From Thermodesulfobacteriota bacterium (lineage in GTDB: Bacteria; Desulfobacterota_D; UBA1144; Nemesobacterales; UBA2774): a stretch of DNA of 45,505 bases. The stretch is taken from positions 1 through 45,505 of the forward strand of contig BQJP01000020.1 in NCBI GenBank assembly GCA_021604765.1, in the 5' to 3' direction. The notes under the pieces were generated by a model. That model had not been told where the DNA came from. It did no database searches and was given only the letters and a program-made list of their open reading frames with translations. Shown here piece after piece: positions 2 through 45,425 of the stretch. The stretch's first letter is position 1; each line of letters starts with the position of its first letter. The position numbers were made by a program, and so were the translations under genes.

Positions 2-3000
2 CTATTTCCTTCAATCAAACTCGAGCTAGTTTCAGTAACAACAGTTTTCCCTGGTGCTTCAGCGGAAGATGTAGAGAAGCTGGTTAGCATCCCAATTGAA
101 GATGAGATTAATGATATAAGTGGTATTAAAGTAATTAGATCAACATCCTCAGAGGGATTATCTCAAATCCTAGCAGAAATAGAAGCAGGTGAGGATACAC
201 AAAAGCTAGCCCAAGATATTAGATCTGAAGTTGCCAAGATTGAAGACCAACTCCCTGAAGATGCCGAGGAGCCGGTAACTGAGGAATTTGATGCAAACTT
301 CCCCCTTATCAGTGTTGCTATTGCCGGGAATGTACCCAAAGAAACCCTAAGAGCATATGGGCTCAGATTTGAAGACCAAGTCAAGCTCGTATCAGAGGTT
401 GATAATGTAGTTACTTCCGGTTTAGGTGATCCTGTTTTCTGGCTTTATGTAGACCCTGAAAAAGTAAGACAATACGAAATAACACTTGAGCAAATCGCAA
501 GCGTGATAGACCAGAAAAACCTTGATCTGCCCGGAGGAGCTGTAGAGCAAGGGGACGCGGAGTTCTTAGTACGCGTAACCGGAAGAGTAGAGGAAGTAGG
601 AGATCTGCTTAACATACCGGTAAAAAGAAACCCTGACGGCAGACACATTCTTCTTAAAGATGTTGCAAGAATAGAACAGGGTGAGCAAAAAACACGAACT
701 AAAGCCCGGGTGAATGGCTTGCCTGCTATTAATTTCTGGATCAATAAACAAAAAGGCGCAGACGCTATTGAAACAGTTGAGGGCATAGAAGAAGTAGTTG
801 AGGAATTTAAGAAATCTAAACCTGACGACATAGAAGTGTACGTAACTAACGATAGCTCATACTGGGTTCAAGCTAGATTTAACACTATGGTCAACAGCGG
901 TTCAATCGGACTTGTCGTCGTACTTTTAATCCTCGCACTATTTCTCGATTTCAGGTCTGCCTTTCTAGCGGCTATAGGTCTGCCTATTGCCTTTTTTGGG
1001 GCATTTATTCTTATGCAGTTCTCTGGTGTAACGCTGAATATTTTATCTATGTTTGGTTTGATACTAGTTCTTGGAATCATTGTAGATGACGCGATAATAG
1101 TGGCTGAGAATATCCAGAGGTATCTTCAGCTTGGGTATTCCCCGGTAGATTCGGCCATAAAAGGAACAAAAGAAGTAGCATTACCTGTTGTTGCTACTAT
1201 TCTAACCAACATAGCATCATTTCTTCCTCTACTGCTGGCAACTGGCTTAATAGGTAAGTTTATGGCCGTTATTCCAACAGTAGCTATATATGCGCTTTTA
1301 GTATCGCTCATTGAAGCGCTGGTTATCCTGCCTTCCCACTGCGCTGACTTTCTAAAGCCCCAGCCAAGAAATAAGCCCGCTAGAAGGTGGGTTTACAAGA
1401 TGCGGTTTTACTACCTGAAATCACTAGTGTTTAGCTTAAAAAACCGATATGTAACAGTCATAACATTTGTCTTAATGCTAGCTTTGACTTTAGTAATCTT
1501 TGCTAAAATACCTCGCATACTTTTCTACTCTCAAGACATCGCTCAATTTTTTGTGAGGGTCGAAAACCCAACTTGGTCTAAAATAGACTCCACTGAAGAA
1601 TCCGTTATAGAGGTGGAGAATGTCGTTAGAGAAACAGTTCCCAATCATGTACTTAAAGATACTGTAGCAATGATTGGCATGGATATCTCAAATGACCAAT
1701 CTGAGTTTGGTGATCATCTTTCCACACTAATAGTAGAATACGAAGATTTTGAAAACCGTAGCGAAAATGGTATTGAGCTAATGGAGGAAGTCAGAAACAA
1801 AGTAGAATCGACAGTAGTGGGACCGGTTAAAGTAGATTTTGTCAGTAACGAAGGCCCACCAGTTGGAAAACCTGTAGACTTCAGGATACAAGGAGCTGAA
1901 TTCAGCACCTTAAAAGACTTGGCCACTGAAATATCAACTCATCTAGAAACTATCCCAGGAGTCTACCAAGCAAGCGATGATCTAATTTGGGGCAAACCCG
2001 AAATCAGAATAAATGTGGATGAAACCAGGGCGGCTATATATGGTCTTGATACCACAACAATTGCAAGAGCAATAAGGGCTGCAGCCGAGGGTCTCACTGT
2101 TTCTCAAACCCGTCTTGGCACTGAGGAAGCGGATATTATAGTAAAGTACGAACTCCCGTCAGGAAATCTAATGTCCTTGCTAGAGTCTTATCAAATATTA
2201 ACACCACAGGGTGGATGGGTTCCACTTAGCAATGTAGTAACTATGAGCACTGAGCCTAGCATGCTAAATATATCTCGATATGATTTAGAAAGATCTGTAA
2301 GAATTACAGCAGAAATAAATGAACAAGCTACTACTGCTACAGAAGTAAACTCTGAAATTGAATCCTATTTAGATGAAAAATTAACTGATTACCCAGGTTA
2401 TTCTTATGCCTTTGGAGGAGAAGAGGAGCAAACAAGGGAGTCCCTTGAGAGTATTCAGAGATCAGCAATAATAGCTGTTCTTTTGATATACATAATTTTA
2501 GCCAGCATGCTTAGATCATACACCCAGCCTTTTATTATCATGGCAGTCCTTCCTTTCGCACTAATAGGCGTTATGGTTGGAATCCTTCTCAGAGGAGAAC
2601 CTCTAACATTGCCGGCGCTTATAGGAGTCGTGGCTCTTTTGGGAATTGTTGTTAACGACAGCTTGGTGCTGATGACATTCATCAATAGCCGGTTTAAAAA
2701 GATGAACAGAGTCCTTGCCGTGGCATTATCTGCTAAACACAGATTTAGACCTATTGTACTCACAACCGTTACAACCTTTGGGGGCCTTGGTACTCTAATG
2801 ATTAAATTCAGAGGGGAAGCGGCGTTTCTTGCTCCAATGGCAGTAGCTCTTGGATTTGGGTTATTATTTGCGACATTTATAACTCTAATTTTGATTCCAT
2901 GTCTGTATCTAATGCTAGATGATTTGAACATTTACATAAAAAAGAAATGGTCCATTTGGAGAGGGAAAAAAGAAGTTTCTACTGAATTGCCAGCAAACCC

Positions 3001-3022
3001 TAAACCGACAACAACCACATAG
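2..3022 (+). CDS. RND-family efflux permease (AcrB/HAE1-like), 5' end off the left edge
   Basis: Inner-membrane proton-driven efflux permease that would work with a periplasmic adaptor and an outer-membrane channel; neither is in the window. The frame is open from base 2, giving 1006 visible residues. AcrB-type proteins are usually about 1020-1050 residues, so only some tens of N-terminal residues are missing. The first in-frame ATG/GTG around 503 is internal and not the start. Visible parts are a porter-domain segment (VFPGASAEDVEKLV near the edge), TM4 with the acidic pair in GIIVDDAII (about visible residues 359-367), a second porter region, and a final membrane block with GIVVNDSLVLM (about residue 880). 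At that TM10 site AcrB has a proton-relay Lys; here the place is Val/Asn, so the relay must differ or the protein belongs to a divergent HAE1 subgroup. Substrate unknown. Confidence 0.9.
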   Translation, partial: LFPSIKLELVSVTTVFPGASAEDVEKLVSIPIEDEINDISGIKVIRSTSSEGLSQILAEIEAGEDTQKLAQDIRSEVAKIEDQLPEDAEEPVTEEFDANFPLISVAIAGNVPKETLRAYGLRFEDQVKLVSEVDNVVTSGLGDPVFWLYVDPEKVRQYEITLEQIASVIDQKNLDLPGGAVEQGDAEFLVRVTGRVEEVGDLLNIPVKRNPDGRHILLKDVARIEQGEQKTRTKARVNGLPAINFWINKQKGADAIETVEGIEEVVEEFKKSKPDDIEVYVTNDSSYWVQARFNTMVNSGSIGLVVVLLILALFLDFRSAFLAAIGLPIAFFGAFILMQFSGVTLNILSMFGLILVLGIIVDDAIIVAENIQRYLQLGYSPVDSAIKGTKEVALPVVATILTNIASFLPLLLATGLIGKFMAVIPTVAIYALLVSLIEALVILPSHCADFLKPQPRNKPARRWVYKMRFYYLKSLVFSLKNRYVTVITFVLMLALTLVIFAKIPRILFYSQDIAQFFVRVENPTWSKIDSTEESVIEVENVVRETVPNHVLKDTVAMIGMDISNDQSEFGDHLSTLIVEYEDFENRSENGIELMEEVRNKVESTVVGPVKVDFVSNEGPPVGKPVDFRIQGAEFSTLKDLATEISTHLETIPGVYQASDDLIWGKPEIRINVDETRAAIYGLDTTTIARAIRAAAEGLTVSQTRLGTEEADIIVKYELPSGNLMSLLESYQILTPQGGWVPLSNVVTMSTEPSMLNISRYDLERSVRITAEINEQATTATEVNSEIESYLDEKLTDYPGYSYAFGGEEEQTRESLESIQRSAIIAVLLIYIILASMLRSYTQPFIIMAVLPFALIGVMVGILLRGEPLTLPALIGVVALLGIVVNDSLVLMTFINSRFKKMNRVLAVALSAKHRFRPIVLTTVTTFGGLGTLMIKFRGEAAFLAPMAVALGFGLLFATFITLILIPCLYLMLDDLNIYIKKKWSIWRGKKEVSTELPANPKPTTTT

Positions 3023-13908: not shown

Positions 13909-15177
13909 TTAGATTTTGGATACGCGTATACGTCTTCGAACGGCTATCAATCCGATAATACCCAATACTCCTGCCATGGCTATTAAACCCCACTCTGAAA
14001 TTGTAGGTACTGGAGTGACTGGAGGCGATTCACCTGTTCCGGAGACAAGTGGAAACGGTAGTCTTAGAGCAACTAAGTTTTGCATGTTAAGTCCAATGGT
14101 ACATAACTGATATAAGCCTTCTGGTATAGGATCATCGGTAAAGAAATCCGTCAAATTCGGATTAGAAGTTTGAGATGATATAACAAATTGCTCCCACTCT
14201 CTATTGCCAGAAGGATTTGTATTCTCAAATTCTCTCCCATCTGGGAAAAGTACTTTATATTTCACAGCAGGGGCTCTATGTGTGAAATTAAAAAAGTCAC
14301 TTTCGCCTGTTAAGGTTCTGTCGTCAAATGGGGCAGGAGGATTAATCCCTTCGGGCTCAGCATCTGAATCTGGTGGCGCAAAGTCGGGAATAGTGTTAGG
14401 AGTATTTTGATCATCTGTATCGGTATCTGTACCATCCTGATTTCCATGATCGAAATCAGCATCCCATATAGTTAACTCGGCAATTTCATTAGGAACTTGG
14501 AAGAATAGACAGATCTCACCATCATATGTTGAAACTGCATAGTCTTCAGCCTGAATTCCATCATCCAAATTTGAATTTGGAAACACTGTCGCAATATCAA
14601 GCGGACTTCCAAAATCTCCGGATACTGCAAACGGTTCATCAAGAAATAGTGAATCAGAAGACCTTACCTTGAAATTGTTCTGAGTATTAACATCATCAAG
14701 TAAAACTATTCTAAGGGTATACACATAGTTTCCATCAGCATCTAGAGCTTGAGGACTTGTAGGAAAAGAAAAGTCAGCCCAGTCGTTATTTGGTAAATCA
14801 GTTGCGAAAATTTCAAATATTACAGGACCAGCATTATCTTTATCCGGATCAATAATTACAGAATAAGAAAAATTACCCGCAACACCTAAATCCCAATTAC
14901 CGTCAATTAATGCTCCAGGAGAGTCACCGTCAAAAATTCCCAAAGAAAACTCTACCGAGTTTGGCGCTACAACTATTTGAAGATTGTTTTCTTTGGGCGT
15001 AAAAGTATTAAAATTTGTCCCACCTGTTAGAGAAAGCAATCTTGCATCTCCAACTTCGCAAGTAGGTAAACAAAAAGGATTGGGTGATGTTAACTGAGCC
15101 TTTGAAGATTCAGGAAACAAAGAAAGAACTGAAAGAATTACAATAAAAACAGAAAAATTTATGACTCTGCAAATCAT
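13909..15177 (-). CDS. Secreted IPTLxxWG-CTERM protein, 422 aa
   Basis: An exported protein of unknown function. The N-terminus is a signal peptide (hydrophobic run at residues 5-20, likely cut after SKA around 27). The middle is Asp, Pro and Asn rich and beta-like, with the segment DGTDTDTDDQNTPN near residue 240. The C-terminus is a tripartite sorting tail: VPTISEWG at about 390, a hydrophobic helix, then RRRIRV. This matches the IPTLxxWG-CTERM signal, which in other bacteria is paired with exosortase H and marks proteins for cell-surface handling. No exosortase is in the window. It has its own terminator and a strikingly patterned promoter (15196-15248). The start follows GAGGGG about nine bases upstream. 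Confidence 0.8.
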   Translation of the reverse strand: MICRVINFSVFIVILSVLSLFPESSKAQLTSPNPFCLPTCEVGDARLLSLTGGTNFNTFTPKENNLQIVVAPNSVEFSLGIFDGDSPGALIDGNWDLGVAGNFSYSVIIDPDKDNAGPVIFEIFATDLPNNDWADFSFPTSPQALDADGNYVYTLRIVLLDDVNTQNNFKVRSSDSLFLDEPFAVSGDFGSPLDIATVFPNSNLDDGIQAEDYAVSTYDGEICLFFQVPNEIAELTIWDADFDHGNQDGTDTDTDDQNTPNTIPDFAPPDSDAEPEGINPPAPFDDRTLTGESDFFNFTHRAPAVKYKVLFPDGREFENTNPSGNREWEQFVISSQTSNPNLTDFFTDDPIPEGLYQLCTIGLNMQNLVALRLPFPLVSGTGESPPVTPVPTISEWGLIAMAGVLGIIGLIAVRRRIRVSKI

Positions 15178-42147: not shown

Positions 42148-43410
42148 TTAGGCTACTTCTTCTTTACAACCACCTTCATCCAGAATCTTTTCTATTTCAT
42201 ATCCTGCAGCTATAGTTGCAATACGAGCAACTAGCTCAAGAGCAGGAGAACATAGAGTATCTACTTCATCCAAATGCGTAGTCTCATCACAGGGATCTAT
42301 ATGAGCAAATTCCATTCCCCGTGAATTTAGGTTTTCCAAAGTACTGCGGCTCTTATTAAGTCTAAGAAAACCTCCAGCGACTTTAGAATCAACAAGATAA
42401 AATACCGGTTCGGCTGAAATATCAGAACCGTATTTAAAAGATGTTGGAATACCTTCCTGAATAACGACGTCTCTCACGGCATTTCCACCTTTACTAACTC
42501 TCATTCGTTTTCTTTTCTCTGAATTTAAACCCCTAACGTCATCTCCGCTTGACACATTCACAACAGCCATGCCATATGTACCGGAGTTGCTCTTGATAAA
42601 CAAATACGGCTCTTCAGAAACGCCCCTTTGCTCATATTCTGATTTTAACCTTGCAATCATATTATCAACTACTTGCGCTACTCTTTCTCTATCCTCTCGA
42701 TTATCGAAATCCACTCCATAATCTTCTATTGTATCGATAGATATTATCCAAGGGTCTAGTCCTAGGATATCAGCCACTTCTGCAGCAAGTTTATTGTAAA
42801 ACTCAAAATGTATGCTTTTTTTTCTTGTGTGCCAGCCTATCTCCACAGGAGGTTCTACAGGTTGGGTTATATCCCTTAGAGTTTGTGGGCACCGCTCGGA
42901 AAAGTCATTATTTATTAGTAATAAATCGGGGTTAAAATTTGGAATAGTTACTCTGTTATCTTGTTTTAAAGCTCTATAAGCTTTTACTTTGTTGCCTGAC
43001 GCCGCATCAAATTCCATTTCATTTGGTAAATCATCCTCTGATATTATTCCCACTTCCACCCTATAGCCTATTCTTTCAATTATAGATTTGAGTACCGATA
43101 TATTTTCCCAGTAAAAAGTATTTCTGGTATGAAGCTCGGGAACAATAAGAATATTACCAATGCTAGGATATTCCCTATTGAAGTAATCTTTAAATAGCGA
43201 AGATGCCTGATTTCTAAATATGTCTGAAAGATTATTAAAACCTGCTGGGAAAATATTAGTATCCACCGTTACAATCTTATGGTCAGATATTCTTAGATCA
43301 ACAGAAGTATAAAGTGGAATAAATGCTTTTTCGACCTGATCCTTAATCCATAAATCTAGTTTATCCTTATTTTCTGCTATTTTTCTATCTAATTCTTGAA
43401 GATGTTTCAT
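42148..43410 (-). CDS. gshA: Glutamate-cysteine ligase, Acidithiobacillus-type GshA
   Basis: Makes gamma-glutamylcysteine, the first step of glutathione synthesis. The sequence fits the third, ATP-grasp-like GshA family found in Acidithiobacillus and some proteobacteria, not the E. coli or plant types. Segments used: KAFIPLYTSVDLRISDHKIV at the start, NILIVPELHTRNTFYWEN, VEIGWHTRKKSIHFEFYNKL, PYLFIKSNSGTYGMAV and FYLVDSKVAGGFLRLN. Length 420 is typical. It lies seven bases after the RDD gene and is probably co-transcribed. No gshB is in the window; GS-HQ reductase is nearby. Confidence 0.85.
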   Translation of the reverse strand: MKHLQELDRKIAENKDKLDLWIKDQVEKAFIPLYTSVDLRISDHKIVTVDTNIFPAGFNNLSDIFRNQASSLFKDYFNREYPSIGNILIVPELHTRNTFYWENISVLKSIIERIGYRVEVGIISEDDLPNEMEFDAASGNKVKAYRALKQDNRVTIPNFNPDLLLINNDFSERCPQTLRDITQPVEPPVEIGWHTRKKSIHFEFYNKLAAEVADILGLDPWIISIDTIEDYGVDFDNREDRERVAQVVDNMIARLKSEYEQRGVSEEPYLFIKSNSGTYGMAVVNVSSGDDVRGLNSEKRKRMRVSKGGNAVRDVVIQEGIPTSFKYGSDISAEPVFYLVDSKVAGGFLRLNKSRSTLENLNSRGMEFAHIDPCDETTHLDEVDTLCSPALELVARIATIAAGYEIEKILDEGGCKEEVA

Positions 43411-43417
43411 TTATGTA

Positions 43418-43942
43418 TTATTCCTTTACAACGTAAGTTCCTGCAACTTTATCATGCCAAGATTGAGAGTTTCTATCAAATATAGACCAGATGAAACCAA
43501 GAAATAAGAATGAGGCTGAAATATAATAGCCGATCCACCTTACAAATGATTGCCAAAATCCAATTGAATTACCCTCGTCGGATATGATTCTAATCCCCAT
43601 TAACATCTTGCCAATGGTCCTACCCCCATAACCATTAAGAATAACAAAATAAGATGACCCGAGAAAAAATAGAAGCAGATATATTGGCATGAAAACTCGT
43701 CTTAAGCTAAAGGAATCTATATTCGTATCTTGCAAATAATAGATACCGACCCCAAAAGCCAGTAAAGAGATAATTGCTACTATAATTAGATCTATAAAGA
43801 ATGCCAGAGCCCTTGAATTTAATCCCGCCAAATTAAATGATATAAAGTCGTCATTATGGTTATCTGTTTCCATTATGGATTCAGGTAAATCACTCACAGA
43901 ATTTTTATCAGGATGAGTCTTATCTATATCGTTATTTGACAT
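43418..43942 (-). CDS. RDD-family membrane protein, 174 aa
   Basis: Small integral membrane protein with three or four hydrophobic segments. RDD marks are NSRALAFFIDLIIVAI, GGRTIGKMLMGIRIISDEG, and SIFDRNSQSWHDKVAGTYVV at the C-terminus. The function of the family is unclear; some members act in ion transport. The first about 35 residues are polar. I start at ATG 43942; a TTG at 43969 would add nine residues, and neither has a clear ribosome-binding site. It is first in an apparent operon with gshA. Confidence 0.82.
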   Translation of the reverse strand: MSNNDIDKTHPDKNSVSDLPESIMETDNHNDDFISFNLAGLNSRALAFFIDLIIVAIISLLAFGVGIYYLQDTNIDSFSLRRVFMPIYLLLFFLGSSYFVILNGYGGRTIGKMLMGIRIISDEGNSIGFWQSFVRWIGYYISASFLFLGFIWSIFDRNSQSWHDKVAGTYVVKE

Positions 43943-44092
43943 TTTATTTGATGCACTAACTGTTAGCAAAGATGCTTCTTATTTTTTGACTATTATCTAA
44001 GATCAAAGATGCCTGTGCTACCTCGTAGTATGTTACTTTATAATTCGAATCAAAAGCAAGTTAAATAAGGGAAAGAGATTTGATTAAAAGAA

Positions 44093-44159: not shown

Positions 44160-45425
44160 TTAGGAACCTTCAGATAATTTCAAGTCAATTGCTGACTTAA
44201 CACCCTCAGGGTTGGCTCCTGGAACTTTCATACCGTTGACAACAAAAGTTGGGGTGGAGTTTACACCAATAGATTGTGCTTCAGCCATGTCGGCTTTTAC
44301 TCTAGCCGCCATCTCATCTGACGCTACACATTTATCAAACTCTGCAGTGTTCAATCCTATTTCTTTAGCATAACCATTAAAGGTTTCATCAGCGGTTTCT
44401 AACTTAATTTTCTTCTGATTATCAAACACTTTATCGTGGAAAGCCCAGAACTTATCATTTCCTTGCTCATATGCGCAAAGTGATGCAATGGATGCTTTCA
44501 TAGCCCAATTGTGGTTTGGTAGCGGATACTGTTTAAAAGAGATTGAAACTTTACCTTCATAATCTTTTAAGATTTGAGGTAGCATTTCCTTTCCTCTTTG
44601 ACAAAATGGACACTGAAAATCTGAGTATTCAACTACAGTAACCTGGGCGCCTTCTGTCCCTTTGGTTGGAACATTATCAAGAGATATTCTGTCCATAGCT
44701 TCTTTGTGCGGGTCAATAGTTGAATCAAGGATATCTGTGCCTAGACCGGGTGCGCCTAAAACCATATGTTTTCCGTCCGTGCTAACAAAAAGAGGTACTT
44801 GCTGACGCGCACCGCCTATAGACCCCTTTTTTAAACCTGCAACACCTGTATCTTTAAAATCTTTGGTGCTTATAATATCTGTGCCCAAAATTACATACTG
44901 AGCATCACCCATTATGAAGAGTGGCACTTGATTTCTGCCTGCCTGAATCGTACCTTTCTTAAATCCCGCAAAACCGGAATCTTCAAAATCCTTAGTGCTT
45001 ACCAGACTTGCGCCTATCATTAGAGACTGACCATCTTCACTTATAAGAACCGGTATATTATTTGGACCGTATGGAATAGTGCCCTGTTTTAAACCCTTTA
45101 CACCAGATGCCTCAAAACTATCCGTGCTTGTGGGTTTACCTATTAGGACATATTTGCCGTCATCACTGATAATGAAAGGAAGTTCTTGATCTCCGCGATC
45201 AGTTATGATTGAAAAAACCCCTTCTTTAAATCCTTCGATTGGGCTCGCCTCAAACCCCGCTACTGTAACTTCTGCATCGGGTGGAACTTGAGTTCCAAAC
45301 CTATTCTTAAAGAAAGACTTTAATCTGGCAGCCTCATCTTTTGACATTGGTTCTGCAAATGAAGAACTCCCAACTATAAAAAAGCATAGCGCTAGTATTG
45401 CCGCTCCTAAAAATTTAACTCTCAT
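44160..45425 (-). CDS. Exported DsbA-like thioredoxin-fold protein with four N-terminal repeats
   Basis: Periplasmic protein of 421 residues. Residues 1-24 are a signal peptide (LGAAILALCFFIVGSSSFA). Residues about 52-226 contain four tandem repeats of roughly 43 residues; from about 250 comes a DsbA/BdbD-type thioredoxin domain with the active site CPFC at 272-275 and the cis-Pro in STPTF (about 390). Two more cysteines (C317, C366) could form a structural disulfide. It probably oxidises or isomerises disulfides in secreted proteins. AGGAGG lies seven bases before the ATG and a good promoter is upstream; it is a single gene with its own terminator. No DsbB or DsbD partner is in the window. 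Confidence 0.88.
   Translation of the reverse strand: MRVKFLGAAILALCFFIVGSSSFAEPMSKDEAARLKSFFKNRFGTQVPPDAEVTVAGFEASPIEGFKEGVFSIITDRGDQELPFIISDDGKYVLIGKPTSTDSFEASGVKGLKQGTIPYGPNNIPVLISEDGQSLMIGASLVSTKDFEDSGFAGFKKGTIQAGRNQVPLFIMGDAQYVILGTDIISTKDFKDTGVAGLKKGSIGGARQQVPLFVSTDGKHMVLGAPGLGTDILDSTIDPHKEAMDRISLDNVPTKGTEGAQVTVVEYSDFQCPFCQRGKEMLPQILKDYEGKVSISFKQYPLPNHNWAMKASIASLCAYEQGNDKFWAFHDKVFDNQKKIKLETADETFNGYAKEIGLNTAEFDKCVASDEMAARVKADMAEAQSIGVNSTPTFVVNGMKVPGANPEGVKSAIDLKLSEGS
44748..45272 (-). repeat. Four tandem coding repeats resembling the DsbC N-terminal domain
   Basis: Each unit has the form F-x-x-SG-x-x-G-x-KxGxI, then about 10 residues, PLFIxxDGxYxxxG. Examples are FEASGVKGLKQGTI, FEDSGFAGFKKGTI and FKDTGVAGLKKGSI, each followed by a segment like VLISEDGQSLMIGA. 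The pattern SPIEGFKEGVFSI then ISDDGKYVLIG in unit 1 recalls the DsbC/DsbG dimerisation domain. Confidence 0.75.

Follow-up and report, generated by a model that had tools for sequence, protein, structure and literature searches.

DsbC-type isomerases are V-shaped homodimers that are kept reduced by DsbD, and oxidoreductases of the DsbA class are reoxidised by DsbB or VKOR. According to the available parts of two sources, whether such an enzyme behaves as an oxidase or an isomerase is influenced by its N-terminal oligomerisation domain (PMC8900818, PMC4960241). The activity of ScsC varies with its oligomeric state, which is set by the N-terminal domain, and DsbC deprived of its N-domain is an oxidase that cross-reacts with DsbB (PMC8900818, in part), while DsbC-N/DsbA chimeras with chaperone activity are among the work cited in the part of PMC4960241 available. 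The same text gives Helicobacter pylori HP0231 (DsbK) as retaining chaperone activity without its dimerisation domain, so the N-domain is not always the source of that activity. The protein described here is encoded in a stretch of 45,505 nucleotides (the window) that constitutes an entire contig (C20) of a Candidatus Dadabacteria metagenome-assembled genome, whose 173 contigs add up to 3.42 Mb. Like DsbC and DsbG, it places a DsbC_N-type domain N-terminal to a thioredoxin-fold domain, and as in the E. coli DsbC sequence the Pro of its active-site loop is preceded by Thr, but it has four N-terminal units where these have one and a DsbA/Thioredoxin_4 domain with CPFC in place of the DsbC-type CGYC. 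HP0231 and the chimeras likewise join a DsbC/G-like N-domain to DsbA-like activity, although with one N-domain and, for the chimeras, by engineering (PMC4960241, same part). The protein is a real, conserved and lineage-specific variant of the known plan of DsbC_N plus DsbA domain. The reading preferred here, to which we give a probability of about one half, is that of a secreted disulfide oxidoreductase whose DsbC_N-type platform has been lengthened in place and would handle clients and/or join chains.

While the mechanism is argued by analogy, the anatomy of the fused protein is solid (Table 1). The earlier note had described four related units of about 43 residues ahead of a DsbA-type CPFC domain, and this is borne out by self-comparison, the unit HMM and Pfam. 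When residues 21-245 are compared with themselves the peak lies at offset 43, with a BLOSUM62 score of 125 over 40 positions, and lesser peaks are found at offsets 86 (score 87) and 128 (score 45); the best of 300 shuffles reached 45 and their mean was 16. A unit profile iterated over the fetched loci recovers four units in the window protein, of which unit 1 has a hairpin longer by approximately four residues. The core shared by 162 Dadabacteria units consists of a G-x-K/R-x-G turn, a Pro, an S-x-D-G-K/R-Y/F turn and a closing Gly, and one Gly is kept in 162 of 162. The units of the window protein contain no Cys. Judging from the N-terminal sequence, the fused protein is presumably exported to the periplasm.

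Table 1 Layout of the fused gene, its downstream neighbours in the window, and repeat-only genes in other genomes
Feature	Position	Strand	Basis
Whole gene, 421 aa: signal peptide, helix, four DsbC_N-like units, DsbA-like domain	44160..45425	-	ORF, ATG start, Pfam, unit HMM
Signal peptide, residues 1-24	45354..45425	-	cut site SSFA/E by eye; AF2 helix 2-19, low pLDDT
N-terminal helix, residues 29-46, opens DsbC_N-like domain	45288..45341	-	Pfam, AF2 models
Unit 1, residues 57-99	45129..45257	-	self-comparison, unit HMM, AF2
Unit 2, residues 100-142	45000..45128	-	self-comparison, unit HMM, AF2
Unit 3, residues 143-185	44871..44999	-	self-comparison, unit HMM, AF2
Unit 4, residues 186-228	44742..44870	-	self-comparison, unit HMM, AF2
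Linker with short helix, residues 229-253	44667..44741	-	AF2
DsbA/Thioredoxin_4 domain, residues 254-414	44184..44666	-	Pfam, AF2, VIA
CPFC active site, residues 272-275	44601..44612	-	both Cys invariant, 15/15 and 35/35 rows
Cys317, likely first half of second disulfide	44475..44477	-	invariant, 15 and 35 rows
Cys366, likely partner of Cys317 in the second disulfide	44328..44330	-	invariant, 15 and 35 rows
Thr391-Pro392, likely cis-Pro pair	44250..44255	-	invariant in 15 rows (A1); at least 90% of 35 rows (A2)
RDD-family membrane protein, next gene	43418..43969	-	PF06271, 94.8 bits; same place in relatives
GshA-type glutamate-cysteine ligase	42148..43410	-	PF08886, 418.2 bits; same place in relatives
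Repeat-only proteins	L044:6001-6450, L049:6001-6450, L019:2526-2972, L167:113-703		unit profile

Sequence comparison supports, with limits, a kinship of the units with DsbC_N. The Pfam DsbC_N model passes narrowly on the window protein (26.8 bits, cut-off 25, residues 39-97); taken singly, unit 1 (18.7 bits) and unit 4 (13.3 bits) fall under that cut-off, and units 2 and 3 give no Pfam DsbC_N match. Among the relatives the model scores 32.8 bits on the fused protein of L047, which has two units, and 34.6 bits on the repeat-only protein from locus L049, each in two stretches, while a six-frame search of the window's own genome with PF10411 returned no match at E 0.001. A profile of second units aligns with residues 35-74 of E. 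coli DsbC at an hhalign score of 31.5, compared with a maximum of 17.5 in 200 shuffles of DsbC; the first-unit profile aligns weakly, at 18.45 with shuffles up to 18.3.

The N-region is predicted to be a beta structure by two AlphaFold2 models, one of the full protein (mean pLDDT 88.1, pTM 0.71, 35-row alignment) and one of residues 26-235 alone (pLDDT 83.7, pTM 0.73, 12 rows). In both, a single helix (residues 29-46) comes ahead of unit 1, and the units are all built of a long hairpin followed by short strands, with the long helix absent from units 2-4. The proposal that the repeats are DsbC-N-like thus stands as to kinship, upheld by Pfam and the profile alignment to E. coli DsbC, but the helix of the DsbC N-domain accompanies unit 1 only, and the models argue against units 2-4 as full DsbC-N copies, of which they appear to retain the beta part alone. 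A helical N-terminal trimerisation region of the ScsC type was not found, the N-region being beta-rich in both models. Neither a Foldseek search of the PDB nor one of a viral structure library gave an N-region fold match below E 0.001, and DsbC is absent among the N-region fold matches listed by Foldseek and VIA, an absence that excludes nothing because the N-domain of DsbC shares a sheet across the dimer. In VIA the helix together with unit 1 weakly resembles 4r80, a protein designed with a cystatin fold (Z 4.5 and rmsd 3.2 over 64 residues), and E. coli amine oxidase (Z 4.7-5.0, rmsd 2.4-2.6 over 62-64; for 1oac, Z 4.7 and rmsd 2.4 over 62), in a domain of the latter that we take to be cystatin-like, although a Z below 8 may mean just a common arrangement.

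A beta-propeller array was considered and rejected: TolB chains fill 10 of the first 13 rows of the Foldseek PDB search, yet the best E is 0.018 and the overall rmsd approximately 19. A single unit (residues 74-113 of the model) is superimposed on one TolB blade with Z 4.1 and rmsd 2.1 over 39 residues (VIA), and no propeller or MORN family, presumably those to be expected for such repeats, is matched in Pfam by the window protein or its units at E up to 1. As modelled, the unit is blade-like, and a propeller reading of the array is unsupported. Tandem copies of a comparable kind occur in the BLIP/DUF2874/PepSY proteins, where a tie between DsbC_N and DUF2874 is possible and two copies form a concave sheet; each copy there has a helix, however, and no redox domain is mentioned in the part of PMC2954215 available.

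The DsbA/BdbD/ScsC-like character of the catalytic domain is supported by both sequence and predicted fold. Pfam assigns it to Thioredoxin_4 (108.8 bits, cut-off 23.2) and DSBA (76.8 bits, cut-off 25.6), whereas Thioredoxin_2 (PF13098) scores 17.3 bits against a cut-off of 27. The predicted model adopts the DsbA fold, with VIA matches to 3gyk (Z 22.9, rmsd 2.0 over 171 residues), 6eez (Z 22.6, rmsd 2.8 over 181) and 3eu3 (Z 22.5, rmsd 2.3 over 175). The matches at Z 22.5-22.9 are 3gyk, alpha-DsbA2 and BdbD, and the ScsC entries follow at Z 21-22. The likeness to all of these (Z ~21-23) lies in the catalytic domain; by sequence, too, the profile matches BdbD best. The N-terminal parts differ, as PmScsC and CcScsC have a helical trimerisation region and alpha-DsbA2 is trimeric like ScsC, and no beta array is reported for ScsC or alpha-DsbA2 in the part of PMC8900818 available. 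The group of BdbD, ScsC and alpha-DsbA2 holds both oxidases and isomerases. The alignment also shows CPFC in a structure whose deposited name is Corynebacterium diphtheriae DsbA, and therefore CPFC does not mark an isomerase. The only Cys residues of the mature protein are 272, 275, 317 and 366, and the spacing of Cys317 and Cys366 equals that of the Cys97/Cys146 pair named in the title of 3f4t, a structure of Wolbachia alpha-DsbA1; the two probably form a second disulfide.

The closest relatives, among the best 80 of 350 loci, come mostly from metagenome-assembled genomes (MAGs) labelled Candidatus Dadabacteria, with some labelled Deltaproteobacteria or Thermodesulfobacteriales. The search of 57 genomes of the window's phylum, its own included, reveals a graded distribution. 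Four units are found in six of the seven genomes of the window's genus (in the seventh a contig end truncates the gene), which makes an artefact of a single assembly untenable, and three units in eight of the nine genomes of the sister genera of its family; the profile search did not find the fused protein in the ninth. Families f2, f4, f6 and f7 have two units (24/24 genomes), and the class-level family f8, with genomes of ~1 Mb, has a single one (14/14, one with a broken frame). In the two genomes of f5 a pair of decayed units can be made out by eye, but the profile detects at most one of them, and that weakly, and the one genome of f3 gave no match in the profile search. On these sequences, the four-unit protein is the outcome of an increase from a single unit that is specific to the Candidatus Dadabacteria lineage. 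The earlier note had judged the architecture unusual, which holds insofar as no earlier description was found in the literature searched, but it is no one-off, belonging instead to a series of one to four units within this lineage.

Outside the Dadabacteria order, the profile detects no more than one unit in any of the loci among the best 80 of 350 (L064 onward). Proteins from Binatia and other MAGs (L069-L071, L075, L077, L079) share the two-part plan of DsbC_N plus DsbA-like domain with one unit, but lack tandem units and, in L077 and L071, have other gene neighbours. The Elusimicrobia loci L067, L155-L159 and L163 show a clear first unit and a shrunken second before the DsbA-like domain, the second possibly an independent duplication. 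Three or more clear units were not seen outside Dadabacteria in the best-80 loci and the phylum-wide samples, with fragments of at most 6 bits in L157 and L163, and a 1-bit fragment within the DsbA domain of L128, left out of the counts. At E 1e-4 the profile A3 has matches in at least 3 of 297 genomes for the phylum of L071, at least 9 of 294 for that of L067, at least 4 of 396 for that of L080 and at least 4 of 395 for that of L066; these are lower bounds because the first look limits the candidates scored, and the samples for the phyla of L071 and L066 are not independent, since their genome pools overlap. Of the 14 genomes picked for holding a best-80 locus, at least 10 match at E 0.01. 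Three DsbA-like paralogues of approximately 260 aa, whose N-terminus looks membrane-like and coiled (L164-L166, in G005, G002 and G010), were considered as members and placed outside the series because no unit was found in them.

The trees suggest how the array grew. In a unit tree of 46 columns, the first units of two-, three- and four-unit proteins group together (SH-aLRT 92), and the third and fourth units of the window's genus are sisters (88); after each other, these two are nearest the third unit of the three-unit proteins (mean score 94 each). The simplest reading of the unit sequences is a passage from one to two, three and four by duplication of the C-terminal unit. The catalytic-domain tree, in which row L169_f5 was entered as a whole ORF, unites the three- and four-unit rows (99/95) and the four-unit rows (99/92), while the split between Dadabacteria and the outgroup is weakly backed (88/72); because the three-unit rows form a clade of their own (87/61), units may also have been gained independently. 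Neither row L169_f5 nor this tree's count of five changes, which scores a decayed second unit as a separate state, enters the reading. Within the window protein the identity between units is 36-48%, compared with 55-67% to the same unit of L008, the most divergent congener compared. Between the window and L036, dN is 0.127 and dS 2.145 for all units and 0.109 and 1.546 for the DsbA part, values to be read with dS close to saturation or undefined in several comparisons; for L033, which is truncated at residue 376, the DsbA-domain figure is left out. The identities by position and a dN far below dS indicate that the units are kept, each in its own place. Growth by slippage that is neutral or nearly so, with function unchanged along the series, would agree with duplication at one end and with a unit number that tracks phylogeny, but it is made very unlikely by these same identities and low dN, and by a number constant in all readable genomes of the genus (6/6) and of the sister genera (8/8).

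The position of the fused gene is also widely maintained. The order of a metallo-beta-lactamase-fold gene, purB, the fused gene, RDD and gshA is found in the four-unit loci L034, L035 and L036 as well as in the two-unit loci L045, L047, L049, L058, L046, L051 and L055, with an additional opposite-strand ORF separating the fused and RDD genes in L047. The three-unit L041 has an RDD-type gene and then gshA downstream, the one-unit L109 and L101 have purB, the fused gene and gshA, L168 and L169 keep purB and gshA, and L053 has the RDD-type and gshA genes with purB absent. The RDD gene begins with a zinc-ribbon-like part in several relatives. The window's own genome carries a purB-like ORF on contig C44, where the first 20 codons of the fused gene are found as well. 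Pfam is the basis of the names of RDD and gshA in the window, the lactamase-fold gene of L034 and RDD of L049; the other names were given by eye. The adjacency of gshA may be mere co-transcription; together with a GST-domain protein, an AhpC/TSA protein and a peroxidase farther off in the window it fits a thiol theme and proves nothing. Elsewhere in the window, positions 13909-15177 on the reverse strand encode a protein of 422 aa with an IPTL-CTERM sorting motif (PF18203) at its C-terminal end, which presumably points to an exosortase-like system in this genome, and positions 503-3022 hold an 839-aa AcrB-family ORF near the contig start, which lacks the N-terminal part of the family since its profile match begins only at position 207 of 1021.

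Besides the fused proteins, four of the seven f4 genomes (G022, G026, G028, G034) encode a secreted repeat-only protein of 154-197 aa (open frame) with no DsbA domain and two units, or three in G028. Its gene directly precedes the fused gene in three of these genomes and follows purB at a contig end in G028. Such proteins bear on two further explanations of the array. The units could form a stiff beta arm that binds no clients and merely sets the distance from the envelope or a partner to the catalytic domain. Signals resembling a lipobox by eye in the one- and two-unit proteins L046, L048, L051, L101 and L109 are in line with this, as is the long low-complexity stretch ahead of the platform in L046, L048 and L051, as if these were tethered, and the unit tree suggests that the insertion of units beside the catalytic domain would increase its distance from the helix-bearing unit. 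The window protein has no lipobox, however, the conservation of units at each position with dN far below dS exceeds what a bare spacer would need, and the repeat-only proteins, having no catalytic domain to place, would be left unexplained, which renders the spacer idea unlikely. Alternatively, the units might serve oligomerisation only, their edges pairing between chains as in DsbC dimers and thereby gathering catalytic domains. DsbC dimerises via its N-domain and trimeric ScsC-type enzymes are isomerases, as stated in the part of PMC8900818 available, and repeat-only proteins could pair with the fused protein; yet a single unit suffices for the DsbC dimer and the rise to four is unaccounted for, and oligomerisation as the sole role is likewise improbable.

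The preferred reading of a lengthened platform that handles clients and/or joins chains would proceed along the following lines. First, the C-terminal DsbA-class domain, with its CPFC site and Thr-Pro pair, would exchange disulfides with client proteins. Next, the ancestral platform would have been a single unit, extended to four in place by successive duplication of the C-terminal unit, and it would most likely act like the N-domain of DsbC in holding or orienting non-native clients and/or joining chains, with the additional units widening the client surface inside one chain. Finally, the platform would favour isomerase and chaperone behaviour over plain oxidation; by the analogy with ScsC, DsbC and the chimeras, the array should favour the handling of misfolded clients. 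The window's own genome encodes a 289-aa frame (L115 on contig C29) that joins a VKOR domain to a CPHC-bearing thioredoxin-like part, and a CcdA-like DsbD_TM protein with a TlpA-like gene adjoining, while DsbB was not found there; thus an oxidising and a reducing partner both exist. If the enzyme is an oxidase it would be recharged by the VKOR-thioredoxin protein, and if an isomerase it would be reduced via the DsbD_TM protein. Client binding, oligomerisation, isomerase activity and the choice of redox partners are all suggested by analogy with the described enzymes. A more specific and unlikely version envisages a partner-free isomerase, in which the tandem units replace the second chain of DsbC, their length selects the clients and the repeat-only proteins act as a catalysis-free platform subunit.

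In the literature searched, with subscription papers and domain-architecture databases outside its scope, no description of tandem DsbC_N units was found, nor any paper that treats Dadabacteria together with DsbA, and a search of PMC8115339 for the terms disulfide, thioredoxin, glutathione and Dsb had no hits. Whether the N-domain of DsbC matters for chain pairing or as a client surface is a question that the engineered chimeras have probed (PMC4960241, available part). The Dadabacteria proteins form a naturally graded set, running from one unit to four in steps of one, with a shared gene position and a like catalytic domain, to which the repeat-only proteins can be added, and this series could separate the chain-pairing from the client-surface idea of the DsbC N-domain. 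It likewise provides a first look at disulfide handling in Dadabacteria, a little-studied phylum.
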